Of a DNA stretch of 64,000 nucleotides, positions 3,360 to 64,000 are shown piece after piece. The notes beneath the pieces were generated by a model. The model saw only the letters and a program-made list of their open reading frames with translations, was not told the origin of the DNA and did no database searches. The stretch covers positions 1 through 64,000 of the IMG/VR virus record IMGVR_UViG_3300002460_000025. One strand, written 5' to 3'. The position numbers were made by a program, and so were the translations under genes. Source of the DNA: a virus. How positions within the stretch are numbered: the first letter of the stretch is position 1; every line of letters starts with the position of its first letter.

Positions 3360-3636
3360 GATACCTTCCCTTCTAGAAGTTGCTTACACGCCGGACACGT
3401 GACAGGTAGGCCGCAGTTCTCGTGTCGACAGTGACAGGCAATCAGTACCTTCGTGGGATCAGGCTCGTCGTCAGCGTTGATCCCACAGAGTGTGACGTCG
3501 GCGTCGAACGTGTCAATATCGCGTCATTCCAGCACCTCAGACTGTCGGGATTCGCGCCAGCAATGACGCGACGGCCGTACACCATGATTGCCGCGAATGC
3601 GGCCGCTAGTGCTGCGAGGATGTGTGTCGATTTCAT
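3356..3636 (-). CDS. Membrane-anchored zinc-ribbon protein, frame broken
   Basis: The 5' part, from ATG 3636, encodes a clear hydrophobic anchor (MKSTHILAALAAAFAAIMVY). The 3' part, in the -1 frame (open 3523-3356), encodes CHCRHENCGLPVTCPACKQL, a zinc-ribbon-like Cys/His cluster, and stops with ATGA coupling to the next gene. The 3' frame has no ATG, GTG or TTG start, so the two halves are probably one gene split by an indel or a translational frameshift. I see no classic slippery heptamer. Confidence 0.55.
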
Positions 3637-3654
3637 GCCTACCCTCCTGCTGTG

Positions 3655-3822
3655 TCAATCAATCCTGAACGCAATGAAATCGATGTCACCGTCGATTTCA
3701 TGTGCATTCTTTACTAGCCAGCGAACTACATCGATAGGTTCGCAAAAACTCTCGATACGATACCAACAGGCGTATCTGTTGAGATAGTATCCGAGGTGAT
3801 AACACTTCAGGTTAGAGTGCAT
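3655..3822 (-). CDS. Small unknown early protein
   Basis: 55 residues starting MHSNLKCYHLGYYLNR behind an AGGAGAAG ribosome site. It is rich in Tyr, Ile and Asp. Nothing in the sequence points to a function; position and spacing fit the leftward operon. Confidence 0.65.
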   Translation of the reverse strand: MHSNLKCYHLGYYLNRYACWYRIESFCEPIDVVRWLVKNAHEIDGDIDFIAFRID

Positions 3823-3873
3823 TTTCTTCTCCTATGCCTGCCTCCGAATGTGAAGAACCGCTCGTCGCGGCCG

Positions 3874-4193
3874 TTACCATTTGGGCTTACCTTCAGGTGT
3901 GAACGAATCTGGGTGTGTGCGCTTGAATTCCTCGAACCGCTCATGTCCGAGTGCTCGGTACGCGCACGTTCGGCCAAACGGGAGACTCCACGGATACGCT
4001 TGTTCTCAGCCTCAGTGTTGGCCCAACGCCAGCATACGCCGTCGAAGGACTGTCGAGTACTGTTGCGCTCACGTTCCAGCCATGAGTCTGAGACTGCTAA
4101 CGGCTTGGAAGTGAATAGGTACTTGAGTGCGTAGTAGATTGCGGTTCCAGTCAGTACGCTTGCGCCTGCAATGACTGGTATGTTCATTGGCAT
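3874..4193 (-). CDS. Membrane-anchored early protein, frame broken
   Basis: The 5' frame from ATG 4193 encodes a membrane helix (PVIAGASVLTGTAIYYALKY) and a charged stretch. The 3' coding signal then switches to the -1 frame (open 4005-3874), which reads FGRTCAYRALGHERFEEFKR and ends KPKW. The original frame runs on to 3807 as low-quality sequence that would overlap the next ribosome site. One gene with an indel around 4000-3955 is the simplest reading. Confidence 0.55.
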
Positions 4194-4291
4194 TACTTTC
4201 CCTGTGCTCGACGGCTTGTGTATCTGTGCTGGTACGCACGACAGAGCACGTCAATCTCGTATGCTGTCAGGTATCTGATCAGTAGATACAT
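4193..4291 (-). CDS. 32-residue peptide
   Basis: It begins MYLLIRYLTAYEIDVLCR and ends RRAQGK; TAATG couples it to the following gene. It may form a short amphipathic helix. Too short to classify. Confidence 0.5.
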   Translation of the reverse strand: MYLLIRYLTAYEIDVLCRAYQHRYTSRRAQGK

Positions 4292-4297
4292 TTGGAG

Positions 4298-4510
4298 TTA
4301 CTCCGTGAGCTTCGGTGCGGTCTTCCATTCCGTGACAGGTTTGAGTCTGTACTCGTAGGTGCCAGTCAGCCCAAGCCCAGTACTCAGCAACAAGTCCTGC
4401 CAGAACCTGACAGCCACATGACGCTTCAGGGCCACTTGACTGATCCGTGTCCATCGTCTGGTCCCACGGATACGCTTGTAGAGGGAGTAGAGTCTAGGTT
4501 GACGCTTCAT
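4298..4510 (-). CDS. Small basic early protein
   Basis: 70 residues, strongly basic N-terminus (MKRQPRLYSLYKRIRGTRRW) and a beta-strand C-terminus. No family recognised; nucleic-acid binding is possible from the charge. Confidence 0.65.
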   Translation of the reverse strand: MKRQPRLYSLYKRIRGTRRWTRISQVALKRHVAVRFWQDLLLSTGLGLTGTYEYRLKPVTEWKTAPKLTE

Positions 4511-4527
4511 CGTTGCCCTACCTTCCC

Positions 4528-4686
4528 TTACTCAGACTGTAACCACTTGACAAGTAGATACCGCATGAGTGCCGAGAGAGATACCGGCGGTACGCCTTGC
4601 TCTCTCGCTATACGGTGCAATTTGAGTGTTGCTGCTTCTATGAGATCCAGTTCGAGCCGAATCGTTTTCATCTGTGATTGCTTCAT
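4528..4686 (-). CDS. Ribbon-helix-helix-like DNA-binding protein
   Basis: 52 residues. A short strand (KTIRLELD) is followed by helix A (LIEAATLKLHRIAREQG) and a second helix (SLSALMRYLLVKWL), the order expected for ribbon-helix-helix repressors such as Arc and CopG. It could regulate the early promoters. It follows a 300-base gap containing hairpins. Confidence 0.65.
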   Translation of the reverse strand: MKQSQMKTIRLELDLIEAATLKLHRIAREQGVPPVSLSALMRYLLVKWLQSE

Positions 4687-4690
4687 GTGT

Positions 4691-4996
4691 CCTTACCTTG
4701 CTACTCCGACCAGATCACGTTACCACATGTTCTCACGATTGCACATCCTGTCATTCTCGGCCCGTTTGGCGGGCCACTTTCGCCCCGATTTTCGCTCCCC
4801 CCGCTACTGCCCCCCCTGCCCGACCCGCGATCGGGCTTCCTGCGGGCTGCCAGGGCCATTCCCGGGCCTGTCTGGCGTCCGGTCCCGATGGCCGTTCGCC
4901 CGTCCGGTCCCGTGTGTCAAGGGGTTGTGACCTTGAACTCCCGCATTACGCGGCAGGGGAGATTACGCTCCCCCACCGTCACTCTGCGATGTGGCC
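4691..4996. other. GC-rich gap with inverted repeats
   Basis: No convincing gene. It contains a hairpin (GGGGAG-ATTACG-CTCCCC near 4955-4975), another (GGCCCG/CGGGCC near 4760), a direct repeat TCCGGTCCCG, one isolated GTGTGTCA (4912-4919), and CACGATTGCAC, which resembles the site near the 2.5 kb promoter. It is probably regulatory. Confidence 0.5.
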
Positions 4997-5434
4997 CTAC
5001 GCGGCCGGGTTCGGTTCCTCCGTCGTTGCTGGCTGCTCGGGCAAGGGGAAGATCTCGTCGACGAAGTAGTCTTCAATCCACGCTTCCACCTTCGCCCTTG
5101 TCTCCGGCGTCTTGTGCGACAGGTCGTCGAAGTTCGTTCGCATGAACCTTACGAGGTCGTCGACCGCGTCGATGAGTCTGCATGCCTGATCGGCATACAG
5201 ATGCACCGGCCATCGTGCGTTGATCCCGTAGATGTTGATGCCGCCTCCCTGGCTGCCCTTGTCGGTCGGCCCGTTCGTTCCAGGCAAGCGCGGAACGCTC
5301 ACCTTGAAAGACAGAGTGCCAGTCTGTTTAGCTGGCGTCGCTTGCGCGATGGAAAGCTGCGACGTGAGACGATCGACGTACTGCTGTAGCTCCGACTTGG
5401 ACATCTTCGACGTGTCTACTGTGTTTGTAGTCAT
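4997..5434 (-). CDS. Conserved-looking early phage protein
   Basis: 145 residues from ATG 5434, chosen for the TTGAGGAAAG ribosome site; an ATG at 5452 lacks one. It has an N-terminal coiled-coil-like stretch (SKSELQQYVDRLTSQL), a Gly-rich middle (KGSQGGGINIYG) and an acidic helical C-terminus. Function unknown. It is the first leftward gene next to the large non-coding array. Confidence 0.75.
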   Translation of the reverse strand: MTTNTVDTSKMSKSELQQYVDRLTSQLSIAQATPAKQTGTLSFKVSVPRLPGTNGPTDKGSQGGGINIYGINARWPVHLYADQACRLIDAVDDLVRFMRTNFDDLSHKTPETRAKVEAWIEDYFVDEIFPLPEQPATTEEPNPAA

Positions 5435-6009
5435 ACTTTCCTCAATTGTCAATGAACACCACGGTCCTGCATGGGGGAGCGTATCTCCCTGTCGCCTACC
5501 GTGTCGGCTCTACACTGGGAGCCCGGTCCCGGACCTGCATGTCCCGTGCCTGCCCATTTGTGCGTATATCTGCATGCATCGACACTAGAACTTCTCACGC
5601 GGCAAGGACCATGCCCAGACTTTCTACCCCTACCGGCATAGACCATGCCATCCACGCCCACTGCACACATATGCCCGCCCTTGCCTACGATGGGGATAGA
5701 GGTCACACACCTGCCTACACGTGCGTATATACATACGTATATACATACCTCTACATACAATGATACATAATGATCATAGAGGTCATACGGCTGCACACTC
5801 TGACCTAGACAAGAGTCATGCCACTGTGCAACGATGAGAAGGGGGGACCCCCTGCAACAACCATGCCATGCCAGGGGCGGTGGGGTCCCTGCGAGGAAAA
5901 TTTTTAGCCAAATTGACTTGCACATAATTGCACTCGCCAGTGAATCGACCCCCCACCTCCGAGGCGAACCGGAGGTACTTACTAGTACGGGAGGTCAACT
6001 CACGACCAA
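5435..6009. other. Non-coding stretch with AT-rich segment
   Basis: No credible gene; open frames here have poor composition. 5724-5776 is an AT-rich run of GTATATAC and ATACATA repeats that could melt easily. 5918-5933 holds TTGCAC-N4-TTGCAC. Together with the adjacent motif array this is a candidate replication origin or control region. Confidence 0.5.
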
Positions 6010-6138
6010 GTGTGTCACTTCCCCCAACACACCCTGACACACCTACATACAAAAATCCAACAAGTGCCATGTTTTCAAGGGCTTACAGGTGTGTCACTTC
6101 ATTTGACACACCCTGACACACCAGTTACATTCTGCAAC

Positions 6139-6180
6139 TGCACAGGAGGGAAACCCCACCCACAGGTGGGTTTCCTGTGT
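6139..6180. other. Imperfect inverted repeat within the array
   Basis: ACAGGA-GGG-AAACC-C-CACC pairs with GGTG-GGTTT-CCTGT around a CACA loop, about 15 base pairs with two bulges. There is no T-run, so it may be a structural element rather than a terminator. Confidence 0.55.
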
Positions 6181-6197
6181 GCTGTGTCACTTTCTGT

Positions 6198-6219
6198 ATT
6201 ATAGGGAGTTTGACACACT
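6198..6219 (-). promoter_or_regulatory. Possible leftward promoter, conserved GTGTGTCAA-CTCCC-TATAAT unit
   Basis: The minus strand shows TATAAT (6198-6203) just downstream of a GTGTGTCA site, with no good -35. The same unit, GTGTGTCAACCTCCCTATAG, occurs on the plus strand at 57246-57265. A regulated promoter for the leftward genes below 5434 is plausible. Confidence 0.4.
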
Positions 6220-6372
6220 TGCATCATTTCCTCGTAACTCGTTGATTCTAAAGGGCCAACAGGTGTGTCACCCAAAAGTGTATAAAACTGTGCAAGATCA
6301 TCAAATTCCTTAGTGTTTTCTGGTGTGTCACGTGATTTGACACACCGACACACATTTGACACACCAGTGGGG

Positions 6373-6402
6373 TTGACAATCCCTCCAGTCGTGTGATAGA
6401 CT
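6373..6402 (+). promoter_or_regulatory. Rightward promoter, TTGACA-N18-TAGACT
   Basis: TTGACA (6373-6378), an 18-base spacer and TAGACT (6397-6402) with an extended TGA before the -10. It starts TTGACAATCCC like the rest of the family and lies directly downstream of the last TGACACACC site. Confidence 0.75.
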
Positions 6403-7124: not shown

Positions 7125-7330
7125 ATTCGCTAGCCCGTGAGCGATTCATAAATCAACGGGCATCCCTCCACCCCGACTGAGACGTCAAATCCCCCACCAC
7201 ACACTCCTTCCTTGTCTCCTGATTTACGTCTCATGTCACTTTCCGAATACGACACCTTTTGTTGGAAACAACTCCTCAGAATCAAGTCCCACCTCCAACG
7301 CTCCGACGCTACCGACGAGGAGGTCCGGCC
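7125..7330. other. Gap before the small terminase
   Basis: The small-terminase frame is open from 7259, but its best start is 7331 and I see no other gene. Confidence 0.4.
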
Positions 7331-7939
7331 ATGCACAAACCCGGCTGTATATGTCGGGTATGCGCGGCAGCACGTCGTCGGACACAAACGGCCATCATTG
7401 AGCCAACAGGAGATGGAGGGACAGCCCTCGTCACGATTGATGTGGCCCCGCCAGCGACCGTCCACGACGCAACCGTAAGTAATCCTATCAACGCCGACCA
7501 AATCCTTGTCGCCCCAAGCAAGACGATACGGGATCGTGTCGCACAGTGGATCATTCTTCGCTCCCAGGGACTCAAAAACGCAGAAATCGCCTCCCGCCTC
7601 GGTATCCAGACCGGCACCCTCAACACGATGATCTCCAAAGCCGCCAAGCAAGGGTGGCTGAAAATGGAAAGTCCTGCTGAACGCCTGGAATACGAGCTTG
7701 CCCCTACGGTGGTCGATAACCTGAAAGAGTTCCTCGACGAGAAGGACAAGAAAATCACCGTTGAAGTTGCGAAGGGGATTGGGTTGTTCAAGTCTCACCA
7801 AGCTGTGAAGGTTGAAGGAGATGTGAACAAGGCCATCCTCGCTCTGAACATTGAATTCTCAGGAGAATCTGCTGGACGCAAAGGCAATATCGTGGGTACC
7901 CCAAATGTGATTGATGTCGAGGTCGTCCAGAGCGAGTAA
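7331..7939 (+). CDS. Small terminase subunit-like protein
   Basis: 202 residues from ATG 7331, chosen for the GAGGAGGTCC ribosome site. A Cys pair (CICRVC) lies near the N-terminus. Residues about 75-120 form a helix-turn-helix (LKNAEIASRLGIQTGTLNTM) like those that recognise pac or cos DNA. The position two genes upstream of the large subunit and the HTH support the role. It would bind packaging-site DNA and regulate TerL. Confidence 0.7.
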   Translation: MHKPGCICRVCAAARRRTQTAIIEPTGDGGTALVTIDVAPPATVHDATVSNPINADQILVAPSKTIRDRVAQWIILRSQGLKNAEIASRLGIQTGTLNTMISKAAKQGWLKMESPAERLEYELAPTVVDNLKEFLDEKDKKITVEVAKGIGLFKSHQAVKVEGDVNKAILALNIEFSGESAGRKGNIVGTPNVIDVEVVQSE

Positions 7940-40972: not shown

Positions 40973-41392
40973 TTACTCCTCCTCCCTCACCACCACCCGA
41001 CATGCCTCGATCGCATCCTCAATCGAATCAACCTTCCGCACGGTGTCGAGGAAGTGGAACACATTGGTCGGTCCCCCAACCATCACGACATCTTTCCCCA
41101 TCGCGAGAGCCATTCCTGTTTCCACAGCCTTCCCTGATGTCTCAGTCCCTCGTGCTTGAAGATTCAATAATACGAGTATGTCAGCAGCCATGACATCTTC
41201 AATGTCATTGAGGGCCTCTCGTTGGAGCTTCACCGGGTCGAGTTGTAACCCATCACTCGATGTCCCCTCATGGAAATCAATCCACCGACTGACCACATCG
41301 AATCCCGCAGCCCTGAAGTCCTTCGACACTTCCTTCGCATAGGCTTTCTCCGCCCACGGGGCCGCGATGTAGATCTTGATCTGATCATTCAT
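40973..41392 (-). CDS. Nucleoside 2-deoxyribosyltransferase-like protein (2)
   Basis: 139 residues. MNDQIKIYIAAPWAEKAYAK and SGKAVETGMALAMGKDVVMV match the same fold as the gene at 39455, with Glu in VETGMA as likely nucleophile. Start 41392 is the ATG after the polymerase stop, with GGGGGAGG upstream. Two such genes in one operon are uncommon. Confidence 0.75.
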   Translation of the reverse strand: MNDQIKIYIAAPWAEKAYAKEVSKDFRAAGFDVVSRWIDFHEGTSSDGLQLDPVKLQREALNDIEDVMAADILVLLNLQARGTETSGKAVETGMALAMGKDVVMVGGPTNVFHFLDTVRKVDSIEDAIEACRVVVREEE

Positions 41393-44229
41393 TTCATCCT
41401 CCCCCATACAGGACCGGATTTCCCTTCCGTCCCAATAGACAACATCGCTCCCATGTTCCAGGACGCAGGAAGTGGAAGTTCAGGTACGGGCTTTTCCATT
41501 TCTTCCTTCAAGATATCATCGAGGGTATCGACATACGACTCTGGGCACTCAGAGAAGACCTCATCATGCACCTGTAACCTCAAATATTGTCCAGCATCCT
41601 CGAATCGATCATTATAGAGCCTCAAGAGAGCTTCCTTGATGATCCCTGCCGCATTCGATTGCGGTCTGAAGGCAAGCACGGCCTCTGCATCATCTCCAAG
41701 TACCCGTGTCCATGTCCCGAATTCCTTCTTCCAACTGAACACGCGATTGAATCGATGCACATATCCGAAGGCATTCCTCAGATACCCATCATCAGCTGCC
41801 TGCATGCGAATCGTGTGATGCCACTTGGGAATCTCAGGAAACAACTCCCGGTAGATATCCATCACCCTCGCGATCAGCTTCGTCTCATGGAGGACCTGTG
41901 TTTCCTTGAGGATCTTCTCTTGAGCACCAGATGCACCTTGGCCGAAATTGATGGCATGGGTCAGATGCTTATACAATGAGTTCCGATCATGCTTCAGGAG
42001 TGCCTTGAAGTGTGCCAGATGACTGAACAGCTTATCGTCATCCCATGATAACAATGGTAAGTCAGCAGATGAGACTCGTGGATCTTCCAGTCCGTAGAGC
42101 GCATACAAGGTATAGAACGTGTGAACATCCTGTTTCGCCAACCGGATATATCCAGGGCTCTTTGCCTCATACCCTGCCAGAACCGCCTCGATTCCGCCGA
42201 AATCGCGAGCGACAAACACACATCCCGGACCCGCGACGATCAAATTCCGAATAATCGATTGAAGATCATCCTCTTTCCCTGGACGAGGGAGATTCTGGAG
42301 GTTCGGATTCTGGGAAGCGAGTCGAAGAGTCGACGGATTATGGGTAAAAATTGTATGGATACGTCCATCTCTCCCTACCGGCATGCCCCCACGAATGCGT
42401 CCGCCCTCCCCGGTCACACCAATGTAGGTTCCGAGGAGTTTCTGGATCTCCCGATGCTCCCCGATAATCCGATACAGAGGATCCTCCGGATACCGCTTCT
42501 GTAACATCGTCAACGCATTCGCATCGAAGGTGATCTTATGATCCTTCCTCGACAACACGGCTTGATGCTTGAGCACCTTCTGGTATGTCTGGAGGCTGGT
42601 ATTGCTGATCTTGAATTCTAATCTCTTGGTCCATAACGGGACCAGAATCTCTGCTGGCTGTTGTCCTGCTCCCAGACACGGGTTCTCCACGCCTCCAGCT
42701 TTGAGGGCTTTCTTGCCGATGGACTTCGTGTGCGAAGCCAGTGGAGCCACAACACCACATCGATCACAGACACGAACAGGGACCATGGTGTCCTGGCGAA
42801 ACAGTCCCAACTCCGTCGCACGAGCCTCCAACGCATCACCATCAAGTCCCTTCAGTTCCTTGGGAACCCTCTTGTAGACCTTGACCTTCCTCGCATCATT
42901 CGGGACAACGGCAGCCATTCGTGTTTCCACGCCATCGAGGAGGGTAGAGAGTTTCGCTTCAGCCGCCGCCCTCGCAGGTTCATCCCTCAGGACACCTTTC
43001 CCTGACATGTAATTGAGCGCATAATTGAGCGTGACGACATGCCTCTGGAACACGCCCCACAGGTTGTTCGCGATGAGATCCCGCTTGATGCCATAGAAGT
43101 TGGCGATTGTGTAGTTACTATCAGCCGCGTTGTAATAGGCAGGTTGTGAATCGCTGAGATGCTTCCACATGGGTGCGTTCTGTGTGTAGAATGGGGTGAC
43201 GAATCCCAATCCTTTCGGGAGGGATGTATTCAACACATGCCATGCGAGCATCCCGTCGACCATCGATCCACGCACGGGGATCTGGGCGGTGATGCGAGGA
43301 TCATCATATATTGTGGAGTTCCACCCAACCTTCAGTCCGTCGACACTAAAGAGTTCCTCCAGTCCGGCCATGTATTCAGCCCGCCACGGGATTGAGATGG
43401 CCTCACCTGGACGATAAGCAAAGGAGCACCTCAAGATGGTGTAGTCATCATCCTCTTCCTTCGCAATCTCTTCCTCATTTTTTCCAGACTTGTAGGGGGT
43501 TTCGATGTCATAGGCGAGAGCGATTTCATCCTTGTCAGCTTCCCAGGCTCGAATGTAATCCTGAATCCAGACTGCAAATGTTGATGGGGAGGGATCACAC
43601 AGATACGAGGGAGCATCATAGGTACACCCGTGCTCTGCGACCTCCAATGCCCGCCGTGTGGCGAACTGGAGAATCGGGAGCCTCGAACTCTTGCCCTGCA
43701 TGAGGTGGGATGGGTGATCTGCCGCTACGACCCATGCCTGATACTTCTCATTCCTATGGATGTAGCATTGGTAGTCCTCCCGCATCACCGGGTGACGATC
43801 ATCATACCCCATGATCCGTTTGAAGGCGGTCTTCCCTAATGCGAGGATCGTGAAGTGACGCTCACTCTGCCGACAGCGTTCAGCCATGTCAGCGATCGTC
43901 TCATCGAGGAGGGGAGCGCAGTGATCGATGGCGAGCCGCTCGTAGGGCATCTTGACGAGTTTATTTCCAGGCGGCTGACAACTTAGTACGTTGTGAATCC
44001 GAAATCCCTCCCGATCAATATCCACCCGCTTGAGGTTGCTGAACAGATACTGTCCTGCCGCACCTACCACGGGGATCCCTGATGCCGCCTCATCCTTCCC
44101 TGCCGCTTCGAGGACGATGAGGACACCATTGTCCCCGGTGCCGTGAGCAGGAACATACCCCTGCATCGACCCAAATGGGGGGCAGCCGAGAATGCAGGTA
44201 GAGCAGGGGATTTCAGGCTTTGAAAGCAC
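41389..44229 (-). CDS. Uracil-DNA glycosylase / exonuclease / DNA polymerase A fusion
   Basis: 946 residues. From GTG 44229 (ribosome site TGAGGA; TTG 44241 is an alternative) the N-terminal 200 residues match family-4 UDG: Fe-S Cys at about 9, 12, 84 and 104, motif EAAGKDEA, SCQPPGN and DHPSHLM. A 3'-5' exonuclease follows (AYDIETPYKSG, about 240), then family A polymerase motifs A (VARDFGGIEAV, about 675), B (NFGQGASG, about 760) and C (QVHDEVFSE, about 888). It is the replicative polymerase. The glycosylase part may be active or only structural. Confidence 0.9.
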   Translation of the reverse strand: MLSKPEIPCSTCILGCPPFGSMQGYVPAHGTGDNGVLIVLEAAGKDEAASGIPVVGAAGQYLFSNLKRVDIDREGFRIHNVLSCQPPGNKLVKMPYERLAIDHCAPLLDETIADMAERCRQSERHFTILALGKTAFKRIMGYDDRHPVMREDYQCYIHRNEKYQAWVVAADHPSHLMQGKSSRLPILQFATRRALEVAEHGCTYDAPSYLCDPSPSTFAVWIQDYIRAWEADKDEIALAYDIETPYKSGKNEEEIAKEEDDDYTILRCSFAYRPGEAISIPWRAEYMAGLEELFSVDGLKVGWNSTIYDDPRITAQIPVRGSMVDGMLAWHVLNTSLPKGLGFVTPFYTQNAPMWKHLSDSQPAYYNAADSNYTIANFYGIKRDLIANNLWGVFQRHVVTLNYALNYMSGKGVLRDEPARAAAEAKLSTLLDGVETRMAAVVPNDARKVKVYKRVPKELKGLDGDALEARATELGLFRQDTMVPVRVCDRCGVVAPLASHTKSIGKKALKAGGVENPCLGAGQQPAEILVPLWTKRLEFKISNTSLQTYQKVLKHQAVLSRKDHKITFDANALTMLQKRYPEDPLYRIIGEHREIQKLLGTYIGVTGEGGRIRGGMPVGRDGRIHTIFTHNPSTLRLASQNPNLQNLPRPGKEDDLQSIIRNLIVAGPGCVFVARDFGGIEAVLAGYEAKSPGYIRLAKQDVHTFYTLYALYGLEDPRVSSADLPLLSWDDDKLFSHLAHFKALLKHDRNSLYKHLTHAINFGQGASGAQEKILKETQVLHETKLIARVMDIYRELFPEIPKWHHTIRMQAADDGYLRNAFGYVHRFNRVFSWKKEFGTWTRVLGDDAEAVLAFRPQSNAAGIIKEALLRLYNDRFEDAGQYLRLQVHDEVFSECPESYVDTLDDILKEEMEKPVPELPLPASWNMGAMLSIGTEGKSGPVWGRMK

Positions 44230-44431
44230 GTATGTCCTCAATGAGAGATTGAAGTTCTTGGTTGATCACCTTCCACCATCGTTGACTTCGAATCCTACCC
44301 CACGTCTTTGCTTTATGTTTATCAGATAGACTGGACATTCTACGACTCAGTTCACGATCACGTTCAACAGCAGTCCTGATCGACTCCTCACTTATAATGA
44401 TACGAGCGTATATGTTGCGTTGGGTCAACAT
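44213..44431 (-). CDS. Small basic helical protein
   Basis: 72 residues from ATG 44431, helical and basic (RTAVERDRELSRRMSSLSDK), overlapping the polymerase start by 17 bases. Unknown; possibly co-translated with the polymerase. Confidence 0.6.
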   Translation of the reverse strand: MLTQRNIYARIIISEESIRTAVERDRELSRRMSSLSDKHKAKTWGRIRSQRWWKVINQELQSLIEDIRAFKA

Positions 44432-48659: not shown

Positions 48660-48997
48660 GCGGGCTTGGAAGGTGCAAGGGAGTCCTGGTAGCCAAAACA
48701 ATGTGGATTCCCATCAGCATCCAGACCCCCATCCTCATTACACCCAAAGTACTCACACTCCTGCGGGATGGAGTACTCACGGTGCCCATCAGTGGTCAGG
48801 TATCGTCCCAAACGGACTACCATCCCAAGATGATGGTCTTCCCACGAGTGCCCACAGATGCACACACCTGATCGATTCGGTCCCCCATAGATGGGTTCAC
48901 GCCTCTCAACACCTTCATCTGGGGTCCAGTCACACTTGACACACCAATGATGTCCATCAACGGGATCATTCGACATGACGTGTTCACAGTTTTGCAT
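48656..48997 (-). CDS. Cys/His-rich zinc protein
   Basis: 113 residues with NCEHV, HHWCVKCDW, VCICGHSWEDHHLG and a Cys-His end, several possible zinc sites. Its 3' end runs into the promoter of the next unit. Unknown. Confidence 0.7.
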   Translation of the reverse strand: MQNCEHVMSNDPVDGHHWCVKCDWTPDEGVERREPIYGGPNRSGVCICGHSWEDHHLGMVVRLGRYLTTDGHREYSIPQECEYFGCNEDGGLDADGNPHCFGYQDSLAPSKPA

Positions 48998-52975: not shown

Positions 52976-53929
52976 ATGTCGCTGATTACCCTCGATACCT
53001 ACCTCAACCTCCCGAGAGACCATAATCTCTGGGTGTTAAAACCCTTGATTCCAATCTCCGGGAAGGGACTCCTGTACAGCCCTGCGAAGGTCGGAAAATC
53101 GAGTCTCGCCATCCAACTCGCCCAAGCCGTGTCCGGAGATGCCCAAGATTTCTTGGGATTTCCCGTCGTGACACACGGGCGTGTCCTTTATATACAGATC
53201 GATACCCCTCGCGCCACGTGGGCCGATCGTTTCGTGACCCTCCGGAAGAACGGACAGGTGTTCAACTCCGACAACCTCTGTATCGTCGACACGGAATATC
53301 TCGGCGAAGAACTCCAATGCTATCCCCCTGACATCCTCCAACCCCGCACGACTGACATCATCTTCAAGCTCGTGAGGGACCATGATCCCGTCCTGGTCAT
53401 CGTCGATACCCTCCGCAAATTCCACACGGGGGATGAGAATTCCTCCACCCCCATGACACAGGTCATGAACAACATCAAGAAAGCCTGTCATCCCGCCGCT
53501 GTGCTCCTCATCAGCCACGATAGCAAGCCTCAACCCGACGTGGAGAGAGATGTGATCTCAGGTCACCGAGGCTCAACGGCTGTGGTTGGTGAGATGGATG
53601 GTGTCCTCCAACTCACGCCCGCACGCCTCAAGTACGCAGGTCGCTCCGTCGAACAAGGATCGATCAAACTTAAAAAGCAAGTGATCGTGGGGGAGAAATC
53701 GAATACGATCCTCTGGTTCCCCGATCCCACCGAACATCACACCGAGATCCAACAGGTCCTCAACAACCCCCTCCTGGAGACCCTCCGTGGACATGGACGC
53801 GCCCTCGCTGAGTTGACTGGGAAGAATGAAGACACCGCGACATCAGTCATTCGACGATGGCTGGAGCATCATGGGGTGAGCTTGAGTGATGCCAAGAGGG
53901 GGTTATATCCGGCGAAGGCTGTTAAGTAA
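52976..53929 (+). CDS. RepA-like replicative helicase/ATPase
   Basis: 317 residues. Walker A YSPAKVGKSSLAI (about 34-46) and Walker B VLVIVDTLRKF (about 140-150) place it in the RecA-fold, AAA_25/RepA-like SF4 helicases; LLISHDSKPQ is a motif-3-like strand, and a C-terminal winged-helix-like end follows (ALAELTGKNEDTATSVIRRW). It likely unwinds DNA at replication forks. It is the only rightward gene in the right arm and has its own promoter. Confidence 0.8.
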   Translation: MSLITLDTYLNLPRDHNLWVLKPLIPISGKGLLYSPAKVGKSSLAIQLAQAVSGDAQDFLGFPVVTHGRVLYIQIDTPRATWADRFVTLRKNGQVFNSDNLCIVDTEYLGEELQCYPPDILQPRTTDIIFKLVRDHDPVLVIVDTLRKFHTGDENSSTPMTQVMNNIKKACHPAAVLLISHDSKPQPDVERDVISGHRGSTAVVGEMDGVLQLTPARLKYAGRSVEQGSIKLKKQVIVGEKSNTILWFPDPTEHHTEIQQVLNNPLLETLRGHGRALAELTGKNEDTATSVIRRWLEHHGVSLSDAKRGLYPAKAVK

Positions 53930-56216: not shown

Positions 56217-56744
56217 CTACCTCCCAAACACACGATCCAGATCATCCACCAATTGACTCAACTGCCACTGAGGATCAAACCCATTAGGGGGAGTGTCCGT
56301 GGCCCTCATAATCGCCACGACATGATTTCGTATCCTCTGTCCCTCCTCTTGGAGATGTGTCACTTCCCCAGTGAGGGACGCGATCTGTCTGTGCAACTCA
56401 GCCGCCTCCGCTGAGACAGCAGGATCGAGTGCCAGACGTTGATTATGAACGATGAGGTCCCCAATCGCTTTCCTCGGATTGTCATCATGTTCCTTCGTGT
56501 AGATCCAATCAACCACACACGCATCGATGACGGCATCACGCCACGGATTGGGTGTGGGGACGGTCTCAAGAGGTGCATGTACAGGAAGATCCTCAATCAC
56601 CTTCATCTGATTGTCATCGTGCTCCTTCATGTAGATCCAATCCACCACGATTGGAGCCACAACATCCACGGTACCGGGGAATGCACGGTTCTGCACAGGA
56701 TCTCCCAACCACCATTCTAGGATCCTCTCAATCATCCTCATCAT
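56217..56744 (-). CDS. Protein with internal WIYxKEHDDN repeat
   Basis: 175 residues from ATG 56744. VVDWIYMKEHDDNQMKVIED and VVDWIYTKEHDDNPRKAIGD are two near-copies 40 residues apart, so it arose by internal duplication. A coiled-coil C-terminus (EAAELHRQIASLTGEVTHLQ) follows. Unknown. Confidence 0.7.
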   Translation of the reverse strand: MMRMIERILEWWLGDPVQNRAFPGTVDVVAPIVVDWIYMKEHDDNQMKVIEDLPVHAPLETVPTPNPWRDAVIDACVVDWIYTKEHDDNPRKAIGDLIVHNQRLALDPAVSAEAAELHRQIASLTGEVTHLQEEGQRIRNHVVAIMRATDTPPNGFDPQWQLSQLVDDLDRVFGR

Positions 56745-57088
56745 TCTAGGATCCTCCACGCCCCGTGCTTGTCAATAAACTCTACACTGGCTATCTGGCT
56801 TGCCAGGATGACCTGTAGGCAACGATCTTCACATGGCCGAGAGTAGACCCAACTCCCATTCCTCCGCCCCGCTACGGTCAACGTGGAGCCCCTGAGACGC
56901 TTCCGGTTGGCTCTCATGATGGCATGCTCCTCTGCATGGAGCCCCATCCCATCCAATCCAGGGTGATTCCACCCCCAACTCACGACCCTCCCACAGGGAT
57001 CAGTGATGACGGCTGCCACCTGTACTCGACAGGGGCTCCTCCGTGTCAAGTCCTTTGCTAATTCCATCCGGTCCACTCGCGTGTTCAT
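56741..57088 (-). CDS. Cytidine/dCMP deaminase-like protein
   Basis: 115 residues. GLHAEEHAIM and SRPCEDRCLQ are the zinc site (HAE...PCxxxC; here PCEDRC). It could supply dUMP to ThyX. Smaller than usual dCMP deaminases (about 150-190). A GGTGTGTCAC site lies 13 bases upstream of its start, in the right motif array. Confidence 0.75.
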   Translation of the reverse strand: MNTRVDRMELAKDLTRRSPCRVQVAAVITDPCGRVVSWGWNHPGLDGMGLHAEEHAIMRANRKRLRGSTLTVAGRRNGSWVYSRPCEDRCLQVILASQIASVEFIDKHGAWRILE

Positions 57089-57100
57089 GTCCCCTCCACA

Positions 57101-57294
57101 GGTGTGTCACTGATGTTGTGCAATTTCGTGCAAATTCCTTGTAAGTCGTTGAAAAATATGGGGTGTGTCACGACACACGGATTTCGACGGAAAGTGACAC
57201 ACTCGAAGTCCATTGTTTTCAATAGGTTACAGCCATTTTCCAGGGGTGTGTCAACCTCCCTATAGTGCATTTAGACACGACACACCTGTGTCAC
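57101..57294. repeat. Second array of GGTGTGTCA / TGACACACC sites
   Basis: At least seven sites (57101, 57162, 57171, 57195, 57245, 57279, 57286). Between them are stretches also found in the 6.0-6.4 kb array: TTCCTTGTAAGTCGTTGA versus TTCCTCGTAACTCGTTGA, TGTTTTCAATAGGTTACAG versus TGTTTTCAAGGGCTTACAG, and GTGTGTCAACCTCCCTATAG versus its minus-strand counterpart. GTGCAA-N4-GTGCAA occurs at 57118-57133. Confidence 0.85.
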
Positions 57295-59536: not shown

Positions 59537-59782
59537 TCACGCTACCGGCTCATCCGTGTCGAGCCACTGAATCCGTGTCCGCCCCTCGTGTCCGTGAATC
59601 GTTTCAATGGCCTCAATCGGAGGAACCACCGCCTCGATCGTAGGAACGACCTCGATTGTATGGAACCTGCCTAACCAACTGAGGACACATTGTCCATCAT
59701 GGAACTCTACACCTTCCGCGACTACTCCCGTCCCACTCACGCCTGAAATGTCCTCACTCCTCACGAGAAGGAATCGTTTCAC
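59537..59782 (-). CDS. Small protein with IEAVVPPIEAIET repeats
   Basis: 81 residues with a short repeated pattern (IEVVPTIEAVVPPIEAIETI) and a beta-rich start. It overlaps the ATP-grasp stop by 4 bases, so it may act with that pathway. Confidence 0.65.
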   Translation of the reverse strand: MKRFLLVRSEDISGVSGTGVVAEGVEFHDGQCVLSWLGRFHTIEVVPTIEAVVPPIEAIETIHGHEGRTRIQWLDTDEPVA

Positions 59783-60468
59783 TCGACCTCCCTACTGTCG
59801 GCCCACTCCCGAATCGCTTTGGCATACACCCCCACTGTGCCATTTTCTATTCCAGGTGCCCGATTGACCTCCAATACGATCAATGTCTTATCCTTCAACT
59901 GCCCAATATCGACAGCACCAAAGTCCAGCCCAAGCGCCTCAATTGCCCTGTGTGCGAGATCACGATGCTTCTGCTTCACTGACTCACCATCGTAGCTGAT
60001 CCTCCATCCACCATCCCACGAGCGAATCCACTCATGAGGGGTCTCGAACCCCGTGCGATGCACCTTGATCCCGGCCCTCAGTGATCGTCCCTTGAAGGAA
60101 TGCACGCGAAATTCCTTAACAATCTCCTCACGTTTCACCCAATAATCCACCGTTCGTGGAGGCCAGAGGAGATCATTCCCACCGACGTGGTGATTTGATC
60201 GTCCAATCCATCCATCTTGATGTGTCCTCGACACCGTGATCGTCGGCACACCAGCGTTCGTGAGGATCTCCGCATCGGTAAACTTTCCCCTTACCAGGAT
60301 CCCATTGAGGACTTTGCATCTCAGTGCAGGTACTCTCACACCCCACCCAATGACGACATCTTGTCGGATCAGCTTCTTCGGGATGTGACTGACTTTTCTC
60401 CCCTCGACAGCAGCAGCCAGCGCCCTCGCACTCTCCGATGGAACAGGTCTGTAGATATAGATCGCCAC
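59779..60468 (-). CDS. ATP-grasp ligase-like protein
   Basis: 229 residues. VPTITVSRTHQDGWIGRSNH, EFRVHSFKGRSLRAGIKVHR and DFGAVDIGQLKDKTLIVLEV leading to EVNRAPG match a RimK-type ATP-grasp core with the final E-x-N metal motif. It should couple ATP hydrolysis to amide or peptide bond formation. It stands in one leftward unit with a glutamine amidotransferase and an amidoligase. Confidence 0.8.
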   Translation of the reverse strand: MAIYIYRPVPSESARALAAAVEGRKVSHIPKKLIRQDVVIGWGVRVPALRCKVLNGILVRGKFTDAEILTNAGVPTITVSRTHQDGWIGRSNHHVGGNDLLWPPRTVDYWVKREEIVKEFRVHSFKGRSLRAGIKVHRTGFETPHEWIRSWDGGWRISYDGESVKQKHRDLAHRAIEALGLDFGAVDIGQLKDKTLIVLEVNRAPGIENGTVGVYAKAIREWADSREVE

Positions 60469-60471
60469 CCT

Positions 60472-60795
60472 CTATGTCTCCTCGTCCTCATCGAACGTGA
60501 TGCTATACGTTACCATGAATTCATTGATGGCGTCCATGATCTTGTCCATCTTGGCAATGATCGGCGTCGGGATGGTGGCAACGTCTGTCAGGTAGACATC
60601 CACCAATGAGTCGAAAATCTTGTAGCACCCGTCCAGCAGTACCGTTGAGTGATGGAGGGCATCATCAGCGATATCCCCATCATCCTTCTCAAATTCCTCT
60701 TCAGCTTCACCATCAACGTCGGTTCGTCCAGGAGGAAGCAGAAGTGGTTGCTTCCGTTTGACGAAGGTGAGCGTTTCGAGATCAGCGATTCTCAT
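60472..60795 (-). CDS. Small acidic protein
   Basis: 107 residues, acidic (EAEEEFEKDDGDIADDALHH), with helical C-terminus (AKMDKIMDAINEFMVTYSIT). No family recognised; a substrate or partner of the ligase set is possible. Confidence 0.65.
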   Translation of the reverse strand: MRIADLETLTFVKRKQPLLLPPGRTDVDGEAEEEFEKDDGDIADDALHHSTVLLDGCYKIFDSLVDVYLTDVATIPTPIIAKMDKIMDAINEFMVTYSITFDEDEET

Positions 60796-61597
60796 CGCGG
60801 CCCTCGCGGTCCATGTCTCTGACGACTTGGGCCAGTGAACGAGGGGCTCTCTCCGTCATCTGTTCAATATTGGTAAAAATAGACTGGTTCGAGCGACGTG
60901 ATGCTGGTGGAGCGAACGCAGGAGTATCTCTTGGAGTTACAGTAGGTCTTGAATTACCCTGAGGAGCCTGTGGAGCCTGTAGTATGCGCCATCCATTACT
61001 GTCAAACACAACATTGCGAGTAGCACGTGATAACGGCGGTGGCATGTCAATTCCTTCCTCCATCACACTAGTACCTACGGCACCAAAGTCCAATGCTGCC
61101 TCCCCACCGATTGGAGGGGCCTCCACCTCAACAGGTATTGGTCTCCCATTGTAAATGTCATCACACGTCTTACACTTGATCCGAGACAGCTTGACCCCAG
61201 TCGTGTGTCCTTCAGAACATCTTACCACTTGTATGATCCGACACCCCGTACAGAGAATCGAACCTTCAGCGACGACTACCCCCTCATTCTCTACAAACAT
61301 CTGTTGACAGTGATCACAGGCCATCGTCGTTGCCAATCTCACAAGTCCATTGACTTCACGAGGTGACAGGATTGCCCTCCGAATGGTTGTGAGAAGTTGA
61401 CTGGAAAACCCACTCCCTGGCTTCTGCCGCCTGCCGATGGTTGCAAGGCGATCGATCAGATCCACATCATGCGTGGGATGATCCAATTGCTCTCGCAATT
61501 GCGTGAGGACAGCTTGCGCGTCTGGGTGGAGATGATCAACCATCCCCTCCAACTCAGTGAGAAGTATGGTTCCTTGTTTTGGTGTGAGTCTCAGCAT
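60782..61597 (-). CDS. Zinc-finger protein
   Basis: 271 residues. A helical N-terminus (about 1-85), a double zinc site (CDHCQQM...CTGC and CSEGH...CKTCDDIY, about 93-145) and a disordered Pro/Arg-rich C-terminus. Unknown. It lies between ATP-grasp and amidotransferase genes. Confidence 0.7.
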   Translation of the reverse strand: MLRLTPKQGTILLTELEGMVDHLHPDAQAVLTQLREQLDHPTHDVDLIDRLATIGRRQKPGSGFSSQLLTTIRRAILSPREVNGLVRLATTMACDHCQQMFVENEGVVVAEGSILCTGCRIIQVVRCSEGHTTGVKLSRIKCKTCDDIYNGRPIPVEVEAPPIGGEAALDFGAVGTSVMEEGIDMPPPLSRATRNVVFDSNGWRILQAPQAPQGNSRPTVTPRDTPAFAPPASRRSNQSIFTNIEQMTERAPRSLAQVVRDMDREGRDENR

Positions 61598-61600
61598 GGG

Positions 61601-61699
61601 TTATTTCCTCAAGGCATAGATACATATGCCGGTAACCAGCAAGGTTACCAGTCCTACAAACACAGCTATCAGAACGAACGCCATCTCCGGATTGGTCAT
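61601..61699 (-). CDS. 32-residue membrane peptide
   Basis: Begins MTNPEMAFVLIAVFVGLVTL; one helix, short basic end. Ribosome site GGGAGATG. One of the membrane microproteins. Confidence 0.65.
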   Translation of the reverse strand: MTNPEMAFVLIAVFVGLVTLLVTGICIYALRK

Positions 61700-61710
61700 T
61701 GACATCTCCC

Positions 61711-62817
61711 TTACATCTGACACACAATCTGGATGCCCCTCTTGCTGGCATCACGGATTTTCTCACGTCGCTTCAACTCCTCGATGTCAGTCAACTCAAC
61801 AGCTGTACCCATAATCCTCGGGCGATCCTTCTTCATCCAACACGTACCGCAGATCCATTCAAACGTGCCTGCCAGACGATGATTGGCGTTGTGAACATCC
61901 TTGGGATCACAGAAATCACACATCCCACTTTTTGAGTGGATTGTGAGCACAGCTGGCTTCTTCTGGTAGCAATCCCAACACTGAGCCACATTATTGGAGG
62001 TTGTCCAAATTCCCGCCACCTTCCCACAGGCACAGTGCTTGTCACGTTGGGCTAGCGCCGTGACCTTTTGCGTTTGTGTGATCGTCCCGTCGCCTGTGCC
62101 AGAAGTTGCCGCATCAGTCGATTGTATTTCTTTCTCCCGATCCTTCCAGTAGCCAGCAGATCCTCCAGTTCCTCGAAACGATGTCTGGTCGGAGGCACCT
62201 CTACCCCCTCGATGGCCCCCCATTGAGAACGGTGGTGTCAGATAGTGAGATACATGTTTCCACTCCGTATTGGAGTACCACACCCCATCATCGTATGTCC
62301 AATCACCAAACAATTCGATGTCATCTGTCTTGAACACCGCCACCTTTTCGTTGATCAACTCCAACAACCCGAGACCGAGATAATTGGACGCCAAGGCTAG
62401 TGCCCTCGTGTCTGTCCACGACCCAGTAGGGAGCTTGAACGGCACCTTACAGGCCAACTCGATGATCTTGTTCTTCCAATCACTCCACATCCCATTGTGG
62501 AACAAGACAGCACCATCGATTGTCCCCTCCAACGTCGTATCAGCGTCAGGGCTGATAGGGAATGGATGACACCCAAATGGCCCAAGCGCAGTACCTACAG
62601 ATGGATTCCTGAAATGCAGCACGTACGGGAGAGGGATTGTCTTGTTCAGAGTCACGACCTCCTCAAGGGTCAGCCCTTTACTCCACCGGACAGCTTTCCT
62701 CCCGTCCTTCTCCTCCAGCCATGCTGCTCCAGCCCCGGAGGGATGCTTCTCAAACCCCTTCTTTACACTATCCTCGGTGATTCTCGTATCCCCGTTCGCC
62801 ACCATGATCACGCACAT
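61711..62817 (-). CDS. Class II glutamine amidotransferase with zinc ribbons
   Basis: 368 residues. MCVIMVANG places the catalytic Cys at position 2, as in class II (Ntn) glutaminases; YVLHFRNPSVGT and VLFHNGMWSDWKNKI are the expected substrate-site segments. The C-terminal third carries zinc-ribbon pairs (CACGK...CWDC; CDFC...CGTC). It should release ammonia from glutamine for the neighbouring amidoligase or ATP-grasp enzyme. The zinc tail is unusual. Confidence 0.85.
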   Translation of the reverse strand: MCVIMVANGDTRITEDSVKKGFEKHPSGAGAAWLEEKDGRKAVRWSKGLTLEEVVTLNKTIPLPYVLHFRNPSVGTALGPFGCHPFPISPDADTTLEGTIDGAVLFHNGMWSDWKNKIIELACKVPFKLPTGSWTDTRALALASNYLGLGLLELINEKVAVFKTDDIELFGDWTYDDGVWYSNTEWKHVSHYLTPPFSMGGHRGGRGASDQTSFRGTGGSAGYWKDREKEIQSTDAATSGTGDGTITQTQKVTALAQRDKHCACGKVAGIWTTSNNVAQCWDCYQKKPAVLTIHSKSGMCDFCDPKDVHNANHRLAGTFEWICGTCWMKKDRPRIMGTAVELTDIEELKRREKIRDASKRGIQIVCQM

Positions 62818-62819
62818 GA

Positions 62820-63632
62820 TTAGATCCTCTCCTGATAATGGTTGATCTCAGCAGCGCCGAGAGCGACCTGTGCCAATTTCCGTGGTTCTCTCTCACGCAT
62901 CTTGGAGAGGAACTGATTCGTGATGCTCAAGACTGTCCTCACTGCCCGAGTGGCTTGTTCCGGCGTCTCCATCATGGGGAGGAGACGACATTCGACCGTT
63001 CGATGTTGTGCAAAACAGTAGTTGAGGGCAGTATAGCGATTGTGAGGCTTTCCCCGACTGTGGAAATCTTTTTTCTCTATTTTTACCTGTTCATCGCCAC
63101 AGTACTGATGAGCACAGTGATCGTGATTCTTCCTCGTCAGTCGATCCCAGATAGGGTGATCCTTTGCCAATCGCTCCGTTCCTGCCCAGTCGAGGAGTCT
63201 CACCACCATCTCCATCGTGAATCGAGGGGTCATGAGGCGTTGGTAATTCAAGCGATTGACCAATCCCATATGAACGTGTAACCCACACGTTTCGTTCACG
63301 TGGTGGGGATAGTACTTCATGATCGCTCGTTCCAACTCATCAGTTATCACGGCAAAAGGACCGAGAGGGATCTCACCAATCCCAACCTTTGGATAGGCCA
63401 TCCCCACATCCGCAGGGAGATCAACAGGTTCCATCGTCCTCATGTTCACGTAACGGTTGTTCCCATCATCGAATCCTATACCAGGAGGTAACTTCGGTCG
63501 TGGGAAGACCAGACTCCCATCTCTGAGGAGTTTGACACCCTTTGGGAGTTTGTCCCACCCTCCCTCCAACTCGATTCCCACCGTGTCGATACGGTTTGGG
63601 ATACCATCAATCCTGACGCGCTTCTTCGCCAC
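62820..63632 (-). CDS. Amidoligase (PF12224-like)
   Basis: 270 residues. TVGIELEGGW, LLRDGSLVF, NETCGLHVHMG, RYTALNYCF and TVECRLLPM are the conserved blocks of the glutamine-synthetase-fold amidoligases that join amino groups to carboxylates. It begins two bases after the amidotransferase stop region, indicating co-translation. Confidence 0.85.
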   Translation of the reverse strand: MAKKRVRIDGIPNRIDTVGIELEGGWDKLPKGVKLLRDGSLVFPRPKLPPGIGFDDGNNRYVNMRTMEPVDLPADVGMAYPKVGIGEIPLGPFAVITDELERAIMKYYPHHVNETCGLHVHMGLVNRLNYQRLMTPRFTMEMVVRLLDWAGTERLAKDHPIWDRLTRKNHDHCAHQYCGDEQVKIEKKDFHSRGKPHNRYTALNYCFAQHRTVECRLLPMMETPEQATRAVRTVLSITNQFLSKMREREPRKLAQVALGAAEINHYQERI

Positions 63633-63642
63633 CCTGCTCCTC

Positions 63643-63972
63643 CTATATCTTGGTGTACGACGACACCGTAATCTGTGCCTTGACAGGCTTCAGGTAGTCA
63701 GTGAAGAACCGAGCAGCCATCCTCGTGATACGGTCATTGAGGCGATCATGTTGTTCACGAGATGCGACCTCCTCAGACACAAACGTCACGCCCTCAGGCC
63801 CACTGGCACCGACAAGCCTGAGGAATGAGAGGTTGATGGGCTCACTAAGCAGGCTGCTCCCAAGTGAATTGAGATCATATGGGTTCTCATACGAGATGGT
63901 CCCATCAGGGAGCATCCATGCCGTGAGGGCTCCAGACTTTGGAATCCACAGACGCCCAAGTGACACGGACAT
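63643..63972 (-). CDS. Small protein upstream of the amidoligase
   Basis: 109 residues, begins MSVSLGRLWIPKSGALTAWM and ends SSYTKI. Alpha/beta, charged helix near the C-terminus (REQHDRLNDRITRMAARFFT). No family recognised; first gene of the ligase set inside the window. The unit probably continues beyond the edge. Confidence 0.65.
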   Translation of the reverse strand: MSVSLGRLWIPKSGALTAWMLPDGTISYENPYDLNSLGSSLLSEPINLSFLRLVGASGPEGVTFVSEEVASREQHDRLNDRITRMAARFFTDYLKPVKAQITVSSYTKI

Positions 63973-64000
63973 ATCGATCTTTTGGTCGATCGCCCAGTGA

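Follow-up and report, generated by a model that had tools for sequence, protein, structure and literature searches.

Paired arrays of short sites with a constant IHF-like element in a family of tailed phages: candidate iteron-type replication origins

In P4, ori and crr are separated by about 4.5 kb. A winged-helix origin-binding domain is ascribed to P4 in the title of a reference in PMC4234260. For the origins of PICIs, two sets of iterons around an AT-rich region were described, located 3' of rep (PMC6092414), and IHF has been identified to assist several iteron origins (PMC4980987). Stoperators, in comparison, are dispersed through the genome, mostly in one orientation (PMC6550527). For most uncultured phages the origins are unknown; with a constant, searchable element that marks arrays of lineage-specific iterons, many could be predicted from sequence.

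The DNA analysed here is a window of 64 kb, taken from a viral record of 71,620 bp (G000) which codes for terminase, portal, DNA polymerase A with a UDG domain, a Sak4-like protein and other tailed-phage proteins. In the polymerase gene (41389-44241, minus strand), an N-terminal domain of the uracil-DNA-glycosylase family is fused to DNA polymerase A. A conserved cluster from 59779 to 64000, continuing to record position 65336, codes for RimK-like, amidoligase-like (weak), COOH-NH2 ligase and GGACT proteins, which suggests peptide or capsid modification.

A first-pass annotation, made from the sequence, had described two distant arrays of one nine-mer, and both were identified as real. The exact sequence GGTGTGTCA occurs 12 times in the 71,620 bp, with eight copies in the left array, three in the right array and one at 48937, so that 11 of the 12 lie inside the arrays; a high frequency of the nine-mer in coding DNA, which would have refuted the first-pass reading, was not observed. 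The left array (6009..6365) contains 11 sites with the core TGTGTCA, five on the plus and six on the minus strand, including three units of three sites that begin at 6009, 6088 and 6322. The right array (57101..57293), located upstream of a leftward deaminase gene (56741-57088), has the seven sites that had been claimed, namely five TGTGTCA cores (57103+, 57164+, 57195-, 57247+ and 57287+) and two TGTGTCG sites at 57171-57179 and 57278-57286. A scan of the entire record confirmed that the 25-bp palindrome GGTGTGTCA-N7-TGACACACC is present in exactly two copies, at 6088..6112 and 6322..6346; a degenerate third copy was found at 6009-6033. The top 8-mer count per 400 bp is 10 here, compared to 3-4 in dinucleotide shuffles (n=30), and the best match of the right array elsewhere in the record falls in the left array.

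We lean, with somewhat better than even confidence, towards reading the arrays as paired replication origins of the iteron type, or as a single bipartite origin, in a tailed phage, where a phage initiator would bind them and IHF-type bending would assist. Multiple short repeats around an AT-rich core, as in iteron origins, are present. The TA-rich core TATTATAGGG (6197..6206), which is TATATAGGG in the relatives, has inverted TGTGTCA sites on either side and is a candidate melting site. It lies beside a GC hairpin, GGGAAACCC...GGGTTTCC (6141..6179), identified by eye; by eye also, a hairpin with differing yet complementary stems was found at the matching place in L004, L022, L037, L039 and L033. 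For GC content, the lowest 60-bp windows in the arrays rank within the bottom 0.04-1.8% of their records. At the left edge of the left array, an AT block, AGGAAAATTTTTA (5894..5906, by eye), is kept in the relatives as AGAAAAATTTT, again by eye. The core, the hairpin, the edge AT block and a promoter-like sequence are landmarks which were seen again, by eye, in relatives.

Some further elements were observed near the left array. Just to its left, a GC-rich structure-like block, GGGGACCCCC..GGGACTCCAGCGAC..GGGGGTCC (5838-5890), is conserved in the relatives L007, L036, L019 and L088; no Rfam match was found for it. A Type-P5 twister ribozyme was identified at 4919-4988 on the minus strand of the window (37.8 bits at a cut-off of 37.6) and at 1788-1855 on the minus strand of L033 (54.8 bits), in both cases about 1 kb left of the array and on the same strand as the leftward genes. 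G002, a relative described below, has about 18 tRNA genes separating the array from the terminase genes (L033 3957-6454); the window has one tRNA-Gly.

The left array is located between a leftward block and a rightward block coding for a resolvase-like protein, tRNA and terminase, a location also expected for operators or a pac site, which speaks against an origin. Immediately past its last site, a rightward promoter-like TTGACA-N18-TAGACT was found at 6373..6402 on the plus strand, as a consensus match, and several array sites overlap TTGACA. A phage regulator acting at both arrays might therefore control both the divergent blocks (6 kb) and the leftward operon (57 kb), the promoter DNA being shaped by IHF. 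A change of the sites between phages would fit as well, since the stoperator sequences of Cluster A phages also shift with their repressors (PMC6550527). However, we regard such operators as unlikely. The sites are in just two compact arrays and in both orientations, neither dispersed nor mainly in one orientation, which disfavours a stoperator network in particular; eleven sites and two IHF-like sites are much for one promoter region; and module 2, described below, adjoins RepA-like helicase genes together with repeat clusters in unrelated phages. Neither an HTH_3 repressor nor an integrase, as would mark a temperate phage of the stoperator type, was found in G000: the families PF00589 (integrase), PF01381 (HTH_3) and PF13614 (ParA) gave zero matches, with PF00589 as the integrase family covered. 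A conserved promoter as the full explanation was rejected, because promoter-like sequences adjoin the array but module 2 and the second array are left unaccounted for. Between the two mechanisms initially offered, the paired or bipartite origin is thus favoured over the operator/stoperator network, and an operator function may coexist with the origin.

The DNA between the sites had been described as shared spacer. This similarity is real, but it consists of a second repeated motif in both orientations and not only of a duplicated block. The motif, designated module 2, is GTAAGTYGTTGATTCTAAAGG and its inverse, and each array has two copies in inverted orientation. In the left array, a degenerate copy lies at 6063..6089 on the minus strand (PWM score 21.9) and a copy with the sequence CTCGTAACTCGTTGATTCTAAAGGGCC at 6231..6257 on the plus strand (31.2); in the right array, the copies are at 57138..57164 on the plus strand (25.4) and, inverted, at 57207..57233 on the minus strand (25.8). 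The copies were gathered with a matrix made by eye from the first ones, and the conservation in the family is in part a result of this selection; exact-pattern scans and a rank test are free of this weakness. With the exact 21-mer, 69 matches were found in viral_contigs, compared to 0 for the same core with shuffled flanks. Of 50 unrelated loci, 13 have their strongest local cluster of 7-mers at module 2, where about 2.5 are expected by rank, and each of these 13 carries another repeat. By the proteins tested, most of the viruses with module 2 are not relatives of the window, and only 4 of 57 copies are inside an open reading frame of at least 110 aa.

When reversed, module 2 reads CCTTTAGAATCAACNACTTAC and contains WATCAANNNNTTR, the consensus of IHF sites (PMC10380432), as an exact match. 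On this reading AATCAANNNNTTA is the core within module 2. The relaxed IHF core is kept in 23 of 28 family copies, which were picked by PWM, and the four positions left free in the IHF consensus belong to the more variable ones of module 2. In contrast to IHF sites, module 2 is conserved well past the IHF core and is often extended to a 27-bp imperfect palindrome. A search for an HU or IHF gene in the phage found none. Judged from its sequence, module 2 would be a site for IHF or an IHF-like host protein, and a host bending protein at this site would explain why module 2 is constant while the first motif changes. It is also conceivable, though we hold this as a tentative and on balance doubtful idea, that module 2 is something other than an ordinary IHF site: it might be the widespread constant part, of about 27 bp, of a modular origin used by phages, where one conserved factor reads the element and each lineage adds initiator repeats of its own, and the present phage family would have two such origins in every genome. 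As an origin part, module 2 would be previously undescribed; a literature search with its sequence did not identify a relevant paper.

Module 2 is also found outside of phages. Among bacterial genomes 14 matches were identified, 9 of them in Acidobacteriota, and some of the bacterial matches adjoin a tRNA gene or a 3' sequence resembling that of a tRNA. In bacterial and viral contigs taken together, this location was seen for L175, L180, L182, L186, L107 and L147, and these copies sit where IHF-assisted integration sites would be expected. The isolated Acidobacteriota phage Tunturi_3 of Tunturiibacter (L162) has a noncoding region of 1.66 kb (3614-5273) with copies of module 2. Its presence in Acidobacteriota genomes and in an isolated Acidobacteriota phage hints at the hosts, but the link is indirect. 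A search of the MCP against bacterial genomes, made to find a host, gave no match. Module 2 gave no match among plasmids.

Relatives were collected by a portal search, resulting in 68 related viral loci; a blastn search of the left array against isolated phages found nothing. By de novo k-mer clustering, TGTGTCA-type arrays were identified at the same place in L004/L010, L022, L037 and L039, where they stand upstream of the terminase and portal genes. In other relatives the motif differs. G002, of 73.8 kb, is syntenic with G000 in reversed direction, and in both of its arrays (41912-42517 and 69958-70206) TGTGTCA is replaced by TGGGTCA, with module 2 unchanged. One of these arrays lies in the divergent region, the other 28 kb away at the position where synteny puts the right array. 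G004 has a third motif, again in two matching regions, the left of which matches the second with 77% identity across 93 bp (E 2e-13 when compared to the remainder of the genome). Thus, in three phages paired regions are present whose variable motif differs between the phages and agrees within one phage, which is strong evidence that a single trans-acting factor reads both arrays. That the arrays belong together, as the first-pass annotation had proposed, is strongly supported by this joint change and by the mutual match in G004. The family also offers a natural experiment on the co-evolution of an initiator with its sites.

The gene order of G000 is circularly permuted in comparison to G002, and therefore the arrays are separated, on a circle, by about 21 kb in G000; in G002 the distance is 28 kb. 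An 82% identical tandem-repeat stretch, GGCTTCCC..GATAGGCT, is shared by both ends of the record, at 251-474 and in the final 250 bases of the 71,620 bp. Given this shared end repeat and the permuted synteny, the record probably broke inside a repeat gene.

The permuted order also fits headful packaging, and the left array is about 1 kb upstream of a TerS-like HTH gene (7259-7939) and TerL. The cosB site of lambda uses IHF. The left array might in the same way be a pac/cos packaging site bound by the small terminase, with the right array as a secondary or boosting site. We consider this improbable, since the second array is part of the early region, at a large distance from the terminase genes, and since packaging leaves the adjacency of AAA_25 genes in other phages unexplained. 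In addition, the HTH of TerS varies strongly among phages sharing TGTGTCA, a switch specific for G002 was not seen, and no clear covariation of this domain with the site motif was identified.

A small RHH protein is encoded near the left array at 4528-4686, and inverted sites clustered beside such a gene resemble those of the ParG/omega type. The arrays could on this view be centromere-like or incompatibility elements for plasmid-like maintenance. This is very improbable, because the ParA family (PF13614) required for a ParABS system is absent from five related records and the RHH gene was not found in array-bearing relatives. The RHH protein and a winged-helix protein (668-1039) had both been proposed as binders of the sites. 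The former was rejected, since a homologue is absent from every array-bearing relative searched, and so was the latter, which was found among the relatives only in G002 and not in G001, a phage with the motif of the window.

A better candidate for the binder, not named initially, is a RepA-like AAA_25 protein of 317 aa, encoded at 52976..53929 on the plus strand (Pfam AAA_25, E 6e-24). Its nearest PDB entry is 1g8y, RSF1010 RepA (E 3.4e-11), and by sequence it is a RepA-family hexameric helicase of the RSF1010 type. The structure model has a mean pLDDT of 50, too poor for a fold search, except for the C-terminal helices 251-298 with a pLDDT of 65-79; a primase domain is not present. The right array of the window is 3.2 kb away from this gene, which counts against the origin. 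In G002, however, the gene abuts the right array, ending about 250 bp away, and in G004 the second region lies about 350 bp past it. The same adjacency was found in several unrelated phages: AAA_25 genes are located about 60-600 bp from module 2 in L104, L157, L114, L118 and L164, the latter being Stutzerimonas phage STP9 with the element 58 bp past the stop codon, and in L168, where the search was begun from AAA proteins, several copies of module 2 are present in the 500 bp before the gene. The distance is 1.3 kb in L145. A search of the viral contigs with the single AAA_25 protein found nothing, and a search with an alignment yielded four further contigs, one of them with module 2.

Other observations weigh against an origin. 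The AAA_25 gene is 9 kb off in L121, and no module 2 was found near it in the three distant relatives L169-L171. Some copies of module 2 have neither repeats nor replication genes around them, and near the element no clear gene enrichment was identified across unrelated loci, terminases being about as common as helicases. A primase or a classical Rep initiator was not found in G000. The GC skew, which had been suggested as a check, follows the coding strand in G000 without a clear bidirectional switch, so that it is uninformative.

For the favoured origins, the following mechanism can be envisaged. A phage-specific initiator, for which the AAA_25 protein or a partner of it is the probable candidate, would bind the TGTGTCA sites around the TA-rich core and melt it. 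The AAA_25 helicase would be loaded at the core, or might itself be the initiator via its C-terminal HTH-like part. An IHF-type host protein would bend the DNA at module 2, so that the array folds and inverted groups of sites meet. The sequences themselves establish the two arrays and their conservation, the motif change common to both, the constancy of module 2, its agreement with the IHF consensus and the AAA_25 genes beside such elements in several unrelated phages; origin activity, the identity of the binder, binding of IHF and the firing or cooperation of both arrays are what we infer.

Among the known systems, the stoperators of the Cluster A mycobacteriophages L5 and Bxb1 are similar in being short sites with TTGACA on one strand and a motif that varies by phage; they are, however, distributed genome-wide and mostly in one orientation (PMC6550527), while two compact arrays with two orientations are present here. 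The PICI origins likewise have two sets of short iterons around an AT-rich melting region beside the initiator gene (PMC6092414), a layout to which the STP9 locus corresponds, with its RepA-like gene ending before the element. Here, a PICI-type Pri/Rep protein was not found, and in difference to PICIs there are two arrays per phage, without a recognised integrase and with IHF-like elements and a hairpin. With oriV of RSF1010, the locus shares iterons, AT-rich DNA, a hairpin and an AAA_25 protein to which RSF1010 RepA is the nearest among solved structures; the sites are, however, 7-9 bp long and in both orientations instead of long direct repeats, and homologues of the RepC initiator or RepB primase were not among the proteins scanned, which are part of the open reading frames. 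As for ori and crr of P4, the same short repeats are present in two separated regions of one genome in G000, G002 and G004. In contrast to P4, the arrays are about 21 kb apart on the circle, the AAA_25 protein is without a primase domain, and module 2 is present.
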